Below the pieces are notes generated by a model. The model did not search any database. It was not told the origin of the DNA and saw only the letters and a program-made list of their open reading frames with translations. The translations under genes and the position numbers were made by a program. Source: Bacteroidia bacterium (GTDB lineage: Bacteria; Bacteroidota; Bacteroidia; J057). From it: 64,000 nucleotides of DNA. Numbering within the stretch: the first letter of the stretch is position 1; every line of letters starts with the position of its first letter. Positions 7,692 through 58,203 of this stretch are shown one piece after another. The stretch covers positions 62,001 to 126,000 of the forward strand of contig JAUIKF010000010.1 of NCBI GenBank assembly GCA_030430575.1. The letters run 5' to 3'.

Positions 7692-7777
7692 CAGAATAAA
7701 GATTGAAGAACAAGGAATTAAGATTTAGAGAGCGTTTCATCCCTTCTTAAATCTTAATTCCTTGTTCGATATTCTGC
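7692..7777. repeat. GAACAAGGAA-family hairpin between convergent genes
   Basis: Perfect 20-bp arms, GAACAAGGAATTAAGATTTA at 7708-7727 and its complement at 7748-7767, with a 20-nt loop. A further 7-bp pair (CAGAATA/TATTCTG) lies outside. It can serve as a bidirectional terminator for the T9SS gene and the antitoxin gene. The antitoxin stop codon lies in the loop. Related copies: 25.37-25.44, 58.11-58.20, 21.06-21.15, 37.08-37.19 and 53.04-53.33 kb. Confidence 0.9.
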
Positions 7778-10669: not shown

Positions 10670-10935
10670 TTAGACCGCTCGGGCTTCGAAGACTCAGCCC
10701 TCGCTGCGAGAGGCGAGACCGTTCGCCTTTCAGGCTCACTGCGAGACCGCTCGAAGACTCGCTGCGAGATAAGAAAAGAAAGTGCCTTTAGCCCTTCGAC
10801 TAAGCTCAGGGTGAATCTCGTAGCGAAGGCGAGTCTTCGAGCCTGAGCGGTCTCGCAGTGAGGAGCGCAAGCGACGAACGATCTCGTAGTGAGGGCGAAG
10901 CCCGAACGGTCTCGCAGCGAGCCCGCAGGGCGAGC
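10670..10935. repeat. Large imperfect inverted repeat between sigma and anti-sigma genes
   Basis: The spacer is made of repeated words around GCGAGACCGCTC and GAAGACTCGC. The left half (10675-10770) carries them on the + strand and the right half (10815-10935) on the - strand, so the whole can fold into a long branched hairpin. On the transcript that would connect the sigma and anti-sigma coding regions it would form an extensive RNA structure, possibly terminating or uncoupling expression. The central part (10790-10812) holds CCCTTCGACTAAGCTCAGGG, a generic intergenic word. Confidence 0.8.
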
Positions 10936-10939
10936 GGTC

Positions 10940-11500
10940 TCAAAACACCTGCCTCAGCTGCTTCATACACTTTCCGCCCTTATTCATGGCGTTCTGGGCG
11001 TCTTTATAGCCAAACTGGGCCGCGAGGGCTTGCCAGGGCACGGGCGGCGTCTCTGCCCGTAGGAGCAAGATCTGGCGGCATACATCGCCGAGCTTTTTGA
11101 GGGCGCGGTGCAGCCGCGCTTGCTGGGTGTCAGGCTCTAGTTCGTCGGGCAAGGGCCCGTCTTCCACAAAGTCCTGGCCGTCGGCCAAGGGCTGGGTGCG
11201 CACTTTCTTGCGCTGCTCGGCACGCAGGAGATTTTTGCATATCCCCACAAAATACGAGTGCACACTCGCCTGATTTTTTCCCTCAAATACCCCTTTTCCC
11301 AACTGACGCATAAGTACGAGCATGCCTTCTTGGAGTAAGTCATCGGCTTGACTCTCGGTCGCGCCTTTGCCTTTCAGGTAGGTGAGCGTCTTGGCGCGAT
11401 TGTGCCGGAAGATATAGGCTATTGCCTTGGTCTTTTTGCTACCACCTACCTGGACCATCTCCACGAGTTCTGCGCTGCTATATGTCGATTGCTTGAACAT
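10940..11500 (-). CDS. ECF-type RNA polymerase sigma factor
   Basis: 186 aa. Region 2 is visible as IAYIFRHNRAKTLTYL followed by ESQADDLLQEGMLVLMRQL and SVHSYFVGICKNLLRAEQRKK (residues ~28-105). After a linker with DGPLPDELEP, region 4 reads ALKKLGDVCRQILLLRAE and PWQALAAQFGYKDAQNAMNK with final CMKQLRQVF. Length and order are those of a group 4 (ECF) factor. Its anti-sigma partner is encoded downstream on the same strand. The divergent neighbour is a lipoprotein, followed by PKD-type T9SS proteins and a CHAT protease, which are candidate regulon members by position only. Confidence 0.92.
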   Translation of the reverse strand: MFKQSTYSSAELVEMVQVGGSKKTKAIAYIFRHNRAKTLTYLKGKGATESQADDLLQEGMLVLMRQLGKGVFEGKNQASVHSYFVGICKNLLRAEQRKKVRTQPLADGQDFVEDGPLPDELEPDTQQARLHRALKKLGDVCRQILLLRAETPPVPWQALAAQFGYKDAQNAMNKGGKCMKQLRQVF

Positions 11501-15955: not shown

Positions 15956-16156
15956 TTATCGTGTGTAAAAAGTTTTATTACCTTTTTCAAAAGGTCATTT
16001 CGACGACCTGAGGCTTTGCGAAGGAAGGAGAAATCTAACAATGTGGTCTAGAAGCCTGGAAATGACCATGCGAAAGGGCGTGTTAGATTTCTCCCGTTGG
16101 TCGAAATGACAACAGTGTTGTTATGAAATGGTCAGAAACTCTTTACACACGATATT
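15954..16156. repeat. Three-level nested palindromic element (GTGTGTAAA shell)
   Basis: Level 1: ATCGTGTGTAAA at 15958-15969 pairs with TTTACACACGAT at 16142-16153. Level 2: GTCATTTCGAC at 15994-16004 pairs with 16100-16110. Level 3: GGAGAAATCTAACA at 16027-16040 pairs with 16081-16094. The ~40-nt central loop is closely similar to that of the element near 53.2 kb. It starts on the stop codon of the preceding gene and may act as a terminator. Confidence 0.92.
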
Positions 16157-20999: not shown

Positions 21000-21185
21000 A
21001 AGGCTGAGGAACTTTCTGTAATTTTCAGTTTCGTATTCTTTTACTCATTTTTTGAACATAGGAAGAAGTAAAAATATAGAACAAGGAAGTATCAAGTGAA
21101 AAGGCTTGGAGGCATTCTTCCCTTTTAAATTTCTTGTTCCTTGTTAATTATTTTTACTTTATGATCTTCCTGACAAATCTCCATT
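21000..21185. repeat. GAACAAGGAA/AGTAAAAATA-type hairpin
   Basis: Left arm AAGTAAAAATATAGAACAAG (from ~21067) and right arm TTTCTTGTTCCTTGTTAATTATTTTTACTTT (~21128-21160) are inverted. The same shell encloses other elements near 37.1 and 53.2 kb. It lies between two same-strand genes and may terminate the CHAT transcript. Confidence 0.75.
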
Positions 21186-25365: not shown

Positions 25366-25440
25366 ATTGCAGAACAAGGATTTTGGAAGGGAAGAAAGGT
25401 TCTTTCACATCAAAAATCATAATTCCTTGTTCGATATTCA
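25366..25440. repeat. GAACAAGGAA-family hairpin
   Basis: Left words GATTGCAGAATATCGATTGC then AGAACAAGGATTTT; right arm AATTCCTTGTTCGATATTCA. This is an imperfect hairpin with a longer loop than the 7.7-kb copy. It sits after the DinB-like gene, directly before the CCCTAAA array. Confidence 0.8.
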
Positions 25441-36984: not shown

Positions 36985-37280
36985 GGGAAAGTTCTAGGTT
37001 CTAGGTTCTAGGTTCGGGGTTCTAAGTTAAAAAGCGACATAGAACACAGTGTTTATTCAAGATTGAATTGTCGGGTTAAGTAAAAATATAAAACAAGGAA
37101 CAAGGAAGTCAAAAGTATTTCGCTGGTTAAGTTTTCTCAATTGACTCTTTCCTTTTCCCTTTTTTATTTCTTGTTAATTATTTTTTCTTATCTGTGTTTG
37201 GAGATAAAACAGGGCTATCATCCCTATATTTCAAACTTGAAAGAACACTAGAACATAAAACCTAGAACCCTCCTAAAACA
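36985..37280. repeat. Nested element: GTTCTAGG shell around AGTAAAAATA/AACAAGGAA shell
   Basis: Outer arms: GTTCTAGGTTCTAGGTTC (~36991-37010) and ACATAAAACCTAGAACCC (~37254-37271). Inner arms: AAGTAAAAATATAAAACAAG (~37078) and TTTCTTGTTAATTATTTTTT (~37166-37185). The inner arms match those at 21.07 and 53.04 kb, where the outer GTTCTAGG shell is absent. Confidence 0.85.
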
Positions 37281-46863: not shown

Positions 46864-47075
46864 TAAATTTGGTTCTCTGACAATTTTAGTGGAGCGTCCA
46901 CTTTGGGCTTTCACATCTCCTGAACCCCGCAGGCCCCGTCCTCTTCAAAGAGGACTTCGCACAGGTCTTATTTTGCGCGAAAACCCCTTTGAAGGGGTGG
47001 GACCTCGTGCGATCGGGGATGTGTTTGCCAGAAGCGATAAGCTTACCACGGAATTTGTCAGAGAACCATAAATTT
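46864..47075. repeat. ~210-bp element with GGTTCTCTGACAA inverted ends
   Basis: GGTTCTCTGACAA at 46871-46883 is inverted exactly at 47055-47067; flanks AAATTT/AAATTT extend the similarity. Inside are smaller hairpins (TCCTCTTCAAAGAGGA, ACCCCTTTGAAGGGGT). It lies between the convergent efflux operon and the next gene. No coding potential was seen inside. Confidence 0.85.
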
Positions 47076-51795: not shown

Positions 51796-52986
51796 TTACA
51801 CCAACGGCAATCGCTTAAACTTCTGCCCCAGCACTTCCTGATCATCTGCGCCTAGCCATTCCTTGAGGATAGTCGCATAGACTTGCCGAAAGTCCAACTG
51901 AAAGGCGAGGTCCCCTTTGTCCAACTGACTCAGATTGGGGAAGGGATTGTAGATGCCTGGCGTCTTCAGTTTTCCCCCAATCAACAGCATATTGTTAGCT
52001 TTTCCATGGTCCGTTCCACGTCCTGCATTTTGCGCTACCCTTCTCCCAAACTCTGAGAATGTCACAATCAAGGTATCGTCCAATTGCCCATTCATTTTCA
52101 AATCTTCAACCAGGGCAGCCACGCCTTTTGCATAATTTCCCAGCAGCCGGTCGTGCTGCCCCCGCTGATTGACATGGGTGTCAAAGCCTGACAAAGACGT
52201 GTAAAATACCTGCGTATCTACGCCCGAACAGATCAGTTCTGCGATGAGCTTGAGCTGTTTGCCAAAAGGCGTATTCGGATAGGTCACCTTGGAACGGTAG
52301 ACATTGGATTTTTCATAAATATAAGCGGTAGAGTTCACCGTCTCGGTCAATGTCTTGTACATATAATCGAGGTCAGAAACGGGTGTTTGGGCAGCCGGTC
52401 CTGCTTGGGAAAGGACCTGGAGATAAGGGTCCTGGGTCGCACGATACAGTTGGCGAGGGTCTCGGACACCAAGTCCTTTGCTTTCAGCGCCTTTGACAGC
52501 GAGGCTGAGGGTATCGGAAATCTCCACGACCTGGTGAGGAGAGGCACAGCCCCTGCAGCTATGGTCCAAATAGCGCCCCAGCCATCCCGTATTCCAATAC
52601 GCATTCGAGTCACTGCCCGAATGCCAGATGTCCATGGACCGGAAGTGCGAGCGGTTGGGATTGGGGTATCCCACATGGTTGAGAAGGGTCGCTTCCCCAC
52701 GCTCAAAGAGCTTCATCAGGGGCTTCAGAGCTGGATTCAGGCCTTGGTGGTCATCAAGGACCAAAGCCTCCTGAAGGGCCAATTGTGGCCGCAATTTGTA
52801 GTAATGGTCATTTCGATAAGGGATAAAGGTATTTAGTCCATCATTCCCACCCGACTGCTGGATGATGATGAGCTTTTTGCCATCGGATTGAAAGGTATTA
52901 TGTCCCAACCCTTGGAGGAAATTGGGCATGAGGAGGGCGCCGGAGGCGAGGGAGGATAGTTTGATGAAGTCTCTTCTATTGGTCAT
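51796..52986 (-). CDS. DUF1501 family protein (exported)
   Basis: 396 aa. The N-terminus MTNRRDFIKLSSLASGALLM resembles a Tat-type signal (Arg-Arg). Family blocks: LIIIQQSGGNDGLNTFIPY (~40), NHVGYPNPNRSHFRSMDIW and FDTHVNQRGQHDRLLGNYAK, then LIVTFSEFGRRVAQNAGRGT. DUF1501 resembles the alkaline phosphatase/sulfatase superfamily in fold. It typically occurs next to DUF1800, as here, though here 355 bp of repeats separate them. The substrate is unknown. Confidence 0.9.
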   Translation of the reverse strand: MTNRRDFIKLSSLASGALLMPNFLQGLGHNTFQSDGKKLIIIQQSGGNDGLNTFIPYRNDHYYKLRPQLALQEALVLDDHQGLNPALKPLMKLFERGEATLLNHVGYPNPNRSHFRSMDIWHSGSDSNAYWNTGWLGRYLDHSCRGCASPHQVVEISDTLSLAVKGAESKGLGVRDPRQLYRATQDPYLQVLSQAGPAAQTPVSDLDYMYKTLTETVNSTAYIYEKSNVYRSKVTYPNTPFGKQLKLIAELICSGVDTQVFYTSLSGFDTHVNQRGQHDRLLGNYAKGVAALVEDLKMNGQLDDTLIVTFSEFGRRVAQNAGRGTDHGKANNMLLIGGKLKTPGIYNPFPNLSQLDKGDLAFQLDFRQVYATILKEWLGADDQEVLGQKFKRLPLV

Positions 52987-53029
52987 TTTATATTAGGCTA
53001 GCTGATGCTTTAATTCTTTGAATAAATAT

Positions 53030-53330
53030 CTTCGGAGAAGTAAAAATAAGTAACAAGAAACAAGGAATTTTAAAGGAAAGAATTTCTTGAACAGCCTTTT
53101 TACTTAGTACATTGTAAATTAAGTTTCTAGCATAACAGCTCTGCTGTCATTTCGACGAGTCTTCGAGGAGAAATCTAACAGTGTGGTCTAGAAGCCTGGA
53201 AATAACCACTCAAAAGGGACTGTTAGATTTCTCCCGTTGGTCGAAATGACAACTGTGTTGTAGGGAAAGGGCCAAAAACTTCTGTTACACTGTACTTAGT
53301 ACTTCCTTGTTCCTTATTTTTACTTTAAGT
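53030..53330. repeat. Four-level nested palindromic element
   Basis: Level 1: AGTAAAAATAAGTAACAAG and ACAAGGAA (53039-53067) pair with TTCCTTGTTCCTTATTTTTA (53303-53322). Level 2: TAGTACATTGTAA (53105-53117) pairs with TTACACTGTACTTA (53285-53298). Level 3: TGTCATTTCGAC (53145-53156) pairs with 53240-53251 exactly. Level 4: GGAGAAATCTAACA (53167-53180) pairs with 53221-53234 exactly. Levels 3 and 4 and the central loop recur at 15.99-16.11 kb in another shell. It separates the DUF1800 and DUF1501 genes. Confidence 0.95.
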
Positions 53331-53341
53331 GTAATTCTCCC

Positions 53342-54748
53342 TCAACACATTTGGTACTCAGGCGTACACAGCAAGCGCATCACCAGGCTCTTTACCTGCG
53401 TCTCTCTGCTTTCACCCTGAAGGTGAGCCTGGAGGGTTTTGGGAGTTATGTATTGCGGCGCAGCTTGTAACAAATATGCGCCCATCCGCTCAGCAATTTC
53501 GGGAAGGGTCATGCCTTTCACATATTTCAGCGTAGGCCCCCAGTTGATCTCTGCCTGTAGTTTTCGGTTCATTCTGGTCTTGACCGCCGTATCAAATTCC
53601 TCATTGCCAGCAAAGGCGGATTTGGGCTCCATATGGAGCTGATAGTCAGCCAGGATGATGGCTTGGGGAATTTTGAGGCGGGCCATGATCGAGCTGCTAT
53701 CGATCCAGCCACGGCCTTCCGTCCAGCCCGCCACATTGGGCGGGTCAAAGAGGCGCTGCCCGAGGAGTTTTTGTAAATAGAGCAGCGACTCGTCCGCTGC
53801 AAACTGGACGCCCAGCGTGCGCATCAGTCCCACAATCAACTCAATCGGCGATTTGATCCGACTGCCCATGGCCGCTTCTGTGTAGAAGTGATCACTCGTC
53901 AAAATGGTCTCCACAAGGTCCGCAATGTCATAATCGGATTGATAAAAGCGCGCTGCCCATTGTTCCACCATTCCCTCATCGACAGTAGGTCCTACCAAAA
54001 AGCGATAGAGCTTTTCCGTCAGGTAGCGAGCGGTCTGTTGTTGGGATAAAATAATCCGCAAGATGTCGTCTCCCTCCCAATTCCCTGTCTCCCCCAGAAA
54101 GGTCTTCTTCCCAAAGTCATGCTGCTTTTTTCGAAAACTGAATTTCCCCTCCTTATCAAATCCCCAACCCGTAAACGCCCTTGCAGCTTCTTGAATGTCT
54201 TTTTCGGTATAATGCCCTCTTCCCATGGAGAAAAGTTCCAGGACTTCCCGCGCAAAATTCTCGTTGGGATGGGCTTTGCGGTTCTGTTGGTTGTTGAGAA
54301 ATGCCAGCATAGCCGGGTCCTTGGAGATGGCTGTGAGTAGGTTTCCAAACTTGCCGAGAGCATGTTCTCGCAGGACATTATTTTGATTCAGGACAAAGTT
54401 GGCCCGCTTGCTCCTACAGGCAAAGTGATCGTGCCAGAAGAAAGTCATCTTCTCGCGCAGGACTGCCGAGGTAGTCGCCATCTGGTGGACCCACGCGATG
54501 TTGAGTTCTTTGATATTCGCCTTCTGCTGACGCTTCAAGGCTTTCTTCTCTTCCTTGCTCAGGCCACGCCGAGATGTGGGGAGATCGGTACTGCCTGGAG
54601 AGGCTAGAAGCGGTCGATACGTTTGAGCTTGCTGGATGAGTTGACGAGCCAAATCTTTGGGAGATTGATCCTGGAGCTTGAGCAGTTCGGGCAAGGAAAT
54701 GCCAAATCCCGCGCGCCAGTAGAGATGCTGAATGGGTTTGTGGTTCAT
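53342..54748 (-). CDS. DUF1800 family protein
   Basis: 468 aa, no clear signal peptide. Family markers: HLYWRAGFGISLPELLKL (start), REKMTFFWHDHFACRSKRAN (~115), FLNNQQNRKAHPNENFAREV then LELFSMGRGHYTEKDIQEAA and ARAFTGWGFD, and VAGWTEGRGWIDSSSIMARL. Its usual partner DUF1501 follows on the same strand after the nested repeat. The function of this widespread pair is not established. The start lies divergent from an OmpA-like gene. Confidence 0.92.
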   Translation of the reverse strand: MNHKPIQHLYWRAGFGISLPELLKLQDQSPKDLARQLIQQAQTYRPLLASPGSTDLPTSRRGLSKEEKKALKRQQKANIKELNIAWVHQMATTSAVLREKMTFFWHDHFACRSKRANFVLNQNNVLREHALGKFGNLLTAISKDPAMLAFLNNQQNRKAHPNENFAREVLELFSMGRGHYTEKDIQEAARAFTGWGFDKEGKFSFRKKQHDFGKKTFLGETGNWEGDDILRIILSQQQTARYLTEKLYRFLVGPTVDEGMVEQWAARFYQSDYDIADLVETILTSDHFYTEAAMGSRIKSPIELIVGLMRTLGVQFAADESLLYLQKLLGQRLFDPPNVAGWTEGRGWIDSSSIMARLKIPQAIILADYQLHMEPKSAFAGNEEFDTAVKTRMNRKLQAEINWGPTLKYVKGMTLPEIAERMGAYLLQAAPQYITPKTLQAHLQGESRETQVKSLVMRLLCTPEYQMC

Positions 54749-58111: not shown

Positions 58112-58203
58112 GATTGCAGAATATCGAACAAGGATTGATGAATGTAGAAGTAAAGAGGCTTTTCACTTCTTCAATCCTTGTTCTGCAATCGTTATTCTGC
58201 AAT
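58112..58203. repeat. GAACAAGGAA-family hairpin between convergent genes
   Basis: GAACAAGGATTGA (58126-58138) pairs with TCAATCCTTGTTC (58171-58183). Outer words GATTGCAGAATATC and CTGCAATCGTTATTCTGCAA extend it. It is probably a bidirectional terminator for the OmpA-like and TfoX-like genes. Confidence 0.85.

Follow-up and report, generated by a model that had tools for sequence, protein, structure and literature searches.

Mutual insertion of small repeats has been described for the BOX, RUP and SPRITE repeats of Streptococcus pneumoniae (PMC3049150). REP dimers have also been found within longer palindromes, as in GTAG-15 of A. variabilis and CGTC-1 of H. neapolitanus, and for the CGTC REPs no transposase was found (PMC3733652). 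QMITE2 of Coxiella burnetii is a MITE of 150-190 bp that contains a REP (PMC5896051). Neither the nesting of small repeats nor a MITE with a REP inside is new, and the locus described here, from a 64,000-nucleotide stretch of Bacteroidia DNA (the window), is a new member of that kind. There are distinct differences. The sequences are not those of BOX, RUP and SPRITE and come from another phylum, and a 5-bp duplication together with the reconstruction of the empty site fixes one event. While QMITE2 carries a GTAG-type REP and has variable duplications of 7-11 nt, the element that we term A has a TGTC-type unit and a 5-bp duplication at YTNAR. The units in the core of A are like the CGTC-tagged REPs in their tag (TGTC), in a stem that starts with A-T and in their arrangement as inverted pairs. 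In contrast to those, the REP-like dimer is enclosed here by terminal repeats that are flanked by target duplications, with different shells in two congeneric genomes.

Four inverted pairs in two units

The stretch examined is the gap at 52987-53341, the sequence of which was read directly. It lies between two genes of the minus strand, which were first named as a DUF1501-type gene (51796-52986), a neighbour conserved in six relatives, and a DUF1800-type gene (53342-54748), whose protein has its relatives mostly in the Bacteroidota. The initial annotation had described four nested inverted pairs around one common centre in this gap, and all four are found in the coordinates. Layer 1 pairs 53038-53060 with 53303-53325 (23 nt, 91% complementary), layer 2 pairs 53105-53117 with 53285-53298, layer 3 pairs 53145-53156 with 53240-53251, and layer 4 pairs 53167-53182 with 53219-53234 (16 nt). 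Layers 3 and 4 had been called exact and are so in the sequence. The common centre holds for layers 2-4, which agree to 3.5 bp (53198-53201.5), but not for layer 1, whose centre at 53181.5 is shifted by about 19 bp to the left because this layer is part of another element, here termed B. Folding bears out the pairing, since the gap strand is far more stable than shuffled sequences (DNA z -6.5, RNA z -7.4). An Rfam scan of the whole window gave no match, and scanning the gap between the two genes for promoters and terminators revealed no such site.

The genome searched is the assembly from which the window comes (G000, a draft of 8.16 Mb in 127 contigs), and the statistics given below are based on genome searches and on sampled stretches. 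The whole 301-bp composite has a single full-length match in this genome, namely itself. Dozens of further matches of the same query are limited to its positions of about 72-273, which comprise layers 2, 3 and 4 together, and 94 matches contain A without B. An uninterrupted B from the window retrieved 82 genome matches, nearly all of them layer 1 without the other layers. Layers 2-4 match together and layer 1 matches separately; therefore A and B are distinct elements, and the four layers are two nested units, with layers 2-4 forming element A and layer 1 belonging to repeat B. The layers thus do not all occur together. That each layer is also found on its own is true for layer 1 (21066-21159 and 37078-37189), but not for layers 3 and 4, as the other copy in the window (15957-16154) has both of them, plus variant layer-2 ends.

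Insertion of element A into repeat B

B begins 17 bp past the stop codon of the DUF1800-type gene. Its left part (53038-53107, plus strand) comprises the left arm AAGTAAAAATAAGTAACAAG.. with the larger part of the loop and ends with the first CTTAG; positions 1-75 of the B profile match 53038-53112. This CTTAG (53103-53107) and a second one at 53295-53299 are the left and right copies of the target-site duplication. Between them lies A (53108-53294, plus strand), which is MITE-like, 187 bp long, has the ends TACATTGTAA..TTACACTGTA, and contains layers 2-4; it is backed by about 40 scored places in the genome and by the statistics of the duplications. It has terminal inverted repeats that make up layer 2 (53108-53125 on the plus strand and 53277-53294 on the minus strand) and a conserved centre (GTGGTCTAGAAGCCTGGAAATAACC.., 53183-53218, plus strand). 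The left REP-like unit TGTCATTTCGACGAGTCTTCGAGGAGAAATCTAACA (53145-53180, plus strand) holds the left arms of layers 3 and 4, and its first 32 nt are identical in a sister species within another shell. Its inverted counterpart (53221-53251, minus strand) holds the right arms. The right arm of B (TACTTCCTTGTTCCTTATTTTTACTT, layer 1) follows at 53300-53325 on the plus strand and matches the B profile.

Removal of 53108-53294 together with one CTTAG leaves a 96-bp sequence that aligns to the full length of the B profile (1 to 96) at 71.1 bits, on par with the 71.0 bits of an intact copy from the window, while the interrupted B yields only partial profile matches of 42 and 25 bits. The reconstructed B is 83% identical to intact copies from end to end, and the insertion point of A is in the loop of B, a few bases off the right stem. 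The closest copy of A (G000:C11:19511-19699) is 100% identical over 189 bp. Given the borders, the duplication, the empty site, the copy number and the absence from the same gap in relatives, we therefore conclude, with a probability of roughly 0.93, that the locus arose by nested non-autonomous transposition, in which A jumped into the loop of an older B and duplicated CTTAG. The proposal that palindromes insert into the loops of other palindromes thus stands for this locus, with its target duplication and empty site, and nesting recurs elsewhere; however, the layers here go back to one event and not to three.

The target duplication is not peculiar to this copy. We placed the ends of A in 35 copies from the terminal repeats and the core alone, ignoring the flanks. 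The flanking 5-mers are identical in 20 of the 35; 5000 permutations gave 2.6 on average and never more than 8, and shifted frames give zero identical 5-mers. The consensus target is YTNAR. Among the 15 copies without an exact 5-bp duplication, four are off by one base and six have a 4-bp match with a one-base shift, as judged by eye from the table; some copies combine unlike left and right end types. The second copy of A in the window (15957-16154, plus strand, locus L244), which has the ends TATCGTGTGTAAAAAGTTT, is flanked by TTAAT on both sides. Most copies measure 181-242 bp and, at less than 500 bp, are too short for a transposase gene. A is short and dispersed in many copies, its terminal inverted repeats are TACANTGTAA or TATCGTGTGTAAA, and it shows a fixed 5-bp duplication and an empty site, as expected of a MITE. 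From the duplications and the copy number we infer mobility, and A is probably a MITE-like non-autonomous element. MITEs usually, though not necessarily, have the same ends as an autonomous IS. For A, no autonomous partner was found by whole-genome searches that used the two end types as well as singleton ends, or in about 1 Mb of sequence that was read, in a draft assembly in which multicopy elements break contigs. The end searches returned only MITE copies, 31-bp end-to-end forms and unrelated matches. The exact pattern of the A centre gave no match in named genomes, and a literature search with the repeat words of the element gave no relevant match.

In this reading, the genome already contained the palindromic B family (~96 bp), whose members mostly lie directly 3' of genes and one of which lay 17 bp past the DUF1800 stop codon, when A inserted into the loop of that copy. 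A, itself palindromic and with its inverted pair of TGTC-tagged REP-like units, would presumably have been mobilised by a DDE-type transposase that acts in trans and makes a 5-bp staggered cut at YTNAR (here CTTAG). The outcome is a single long composite hairpin that separates two co-directional genes and might have an effect on transcription or on the mRNA of the gene pair.

Repeat B and the frequency of nesting

B is a palindromic repeat family of about 96 bp, for which 40 or more places were scored across the genome. The two uninterrupted copies in the window, at 21066-21159 on the minus strand and 37078-37189 on the plus strand, were recognised by the B profile and are without A. Of 29 B loci, 26 lie next to one or more gene 3' ends, frequently within 2-30 bp of the stop codon, in a count that uses crude gene calls, and the reconstructed B folds better than shuffled sequences (z -2.9). 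Both observations would suit a functional 3'-end hairpin, acting as a terminator or as a stabiliser of mRNA, that A merely hit. Such a role would complement the nesting and not compete with it. We consider it rather doubtful, as the stems are A+T-rich, no terminator signature is present in the gap, half copies of B are common, and the gene calls behind the 3'-end count are crude. A target-site duplication, which a MITE should have, was not apparent by eye in about 30 copies of B.

Further palindromes in the window (7693-7775, 25372-25438 and 58119-58196) have a B-related loop (AACAAGGAA..) and different outer arms (TTGCAGAATATCGA), and B-like repeats seem to be built from interchangeable words. 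The B copy at 37078-37189 is enclosed by inverted TTCTAGG repeats (36986-37273, arms of 26 nt, 85%), which is a concentric arrangement too. In another B (locus L066, G000:C66:314273) a word of about 19 nt (CGACTAGGCTCAGGACAAG) splits the right arm, with an apparent duplication of CCTT.

Nesting is also seen with a third repeat. The MITE-like element D, which is present in the window at 46871-47067 (197 bp, plus strand, ends GGTTCTCTGACA, A/T-rich 8-bp duplication ATAAATTT), lies elsewhere inside A at three loci (contigs C31, C22 and C47), with duplications of about 8 bp. In three of the four complete copies of D that were seen, it occupies A/T-rich arms of A, a count that is biased, since all three nested copies were met via A. 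Tandem copies of A that have CTCAA in common were found at C13 and C46. Together with the occurrence of the A shell by itself, in the form of 31-bp palindromes, and with other cores inside it, these repeated nestings would be in keeping with a dedicated stacking, whereby palindromes preferentially enter the loops of other palindromes, or grow symmetrically within them, layer by layer. The numbers argue against it. In a sample of 679 kb, about 9% is intergenic DNA and B makes up about 1.3% of the intergenic YTNAR sites; with about 40-80 copies of A, chance alone predicts approximately one insertion of A into B, which is the number observed. As the count equals the random intergenic expectation, neither a search for palindromes nor a system of stacked shells is needed. 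Moreover, layers 3 and 4 were never apart in the copies that were read, and the junctions are accounted for by ordinary duplications. Dedicated stacking is thus improbable, and the novel system of stacked palindromic shells that had been suggested for this gap gives way to random insertion, the mutual insertion of small repeats having been described before. Another intergenic gap of the window (10672-10941) harbours a cluster of inverted and direct GAGACCGCTCG / GCGAGACCG repeats.

REP-like cores and their shells

The core of A has a TGTC tag followed by an ATTTC..GAAAT stem that starts with A-T, in an inverted pair, which is what is expected of a tagged REP. The predicted stem of the unit is 5+3 or 5+2 with unpaired bases between and the tail is CTAACA, compared to a stem of 8-9 bp, a loop of 4-5 and a tail of about CCA in REPs. 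Single units do not fold better than shuffled sequences. Such an inverted pair recalls the CGTC-tagged REPs (PMC3733652), and the genome encodes three Y1_Tnp genes, so that A could be regarded as a REP dimer (REPIN/BIME) mobilised by a RAYT and not as a MITE with terminal repeats of its own. We consider this very unlikely. None of the three Y1_Tnp loci has a REP unit or A ends nearby, as a RAYT-associated REPIN should, and on these grounds we rejected a RAYT as the mobiliser of A. The repeated unit also extends beyond the REP to the terminal repeats, and A has a target duplication. Transposition of the IS200/RAYT type leaves no target duplication.

The DUF1800-DUF1501 gene pair is present in the same order in six relatives (G001-G005 and G007). 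Their orthologous gaps measure 14-99 bp and contain no palindromic element, and the composite, and with it the insertion, is therefore specific to the source lineage. No complete A was found among 39 relatives; G001 has the core unit alone, with weaker matches in G004 and G035. Outside its own genome, B was matched once in G001, over part of its length, and G004 has several copies of it. The strong predicted fold could suggest a single ancient composite of about 300 bp, or a conserved regulatory RNA with a fixed four-layer structure, but this is refuted by the copy and synteny data (one match of the whole 301 bp in the genome, gaps of 14-99 bp in the relatives where a fixed element should have been present), with neither an Rfam match nor a terminator- or promoter-like site in the gap, and its probability is negligible.

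A itself is modular. Besides enclosing the usual core, its ends are joined end to end in 31-bp palindromes with duplications (C17, C58 and C27) and are found in forms of 72-97 bp without the REP pair, and at one locus (L087, G000:C119, ~123850-124020) A-type ends enclose another REP-like core (GTCATTCTGAACGGAGTGAAGAATCTTACTA). The sister species (G001) has the identical 32-nt unit TGTCATTTCGACGAGTCTTCGAGGAGAAATCT as an inverted pair with different ends, GGAACGGTGACGAAATAAA..TTTATTTTATCGCTATTCC. Duplications of 3 bp flank 18 of the 22 copies of this MITE, where permutation gives a mean of 9.4 and at most 17. The ends of its shell (GGAACAGTGACAAAATAAA) are shared with a multicopy element that is broken by contig ends in G001, and the first 35 residues encoded by this element are 54% identical to a PF07592 (ISAzo13) protein of Calothrix. 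A PF07592 search of both genomes was empty, as were the controls, and direct family scans of two fragments gave no match; the ISAzo13-like assignment therefore rests on the N-terminal fragment and the Calothrix relative, by which the multicopy element resembles the ISAzo13 family. The ends of A (TACAGTGTAA / TATCGTGTGTAAA) and its 5-bp duplication differ from this ISAzo13-like shell. At loci L193-L218 of the sister species, the left REP unit of the MITE has one to several tandem AGCCTGCCCTGAGCTTGTCGAAGG in its loop, which gives a ladder of lengths.

Thus, an identical 32-nt unit is present in the A shell with its 5-bp duplications and in the G001 shell with its 3-bp duplications and ISAzo13-like ends, and each shell is also found with other cores or with none. 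For this reason we tentatively suggest, with odds somewhat below even, that TGTC/CGTC-type REP dimers in this Bacteroidota genus could be cargo that passes between unrelated MITE shells. One REP-like core common to MITE shells of different transposon types, seen here by sequence comparison of two genomes, may be novel. If this holds true, REPs without a transposase of their own would spread by capture between the ends of unrelated transposons, which would offer a possible answer to how CGTC REPs move.

The locus itself is a clean case of a small palindromic repeat that transposed into another one, and it warns that stacked hairpins between genes should not be taken for one designed structure. 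Beyond that, the comparison suggests that transposase-less REP-like hairpins may ride in MITE shells of different transposon families, and this would give CGTC-type REPs, whose mobilising enzyme had not been found (PMC3733652), a concrete means of spreading that can be tested.
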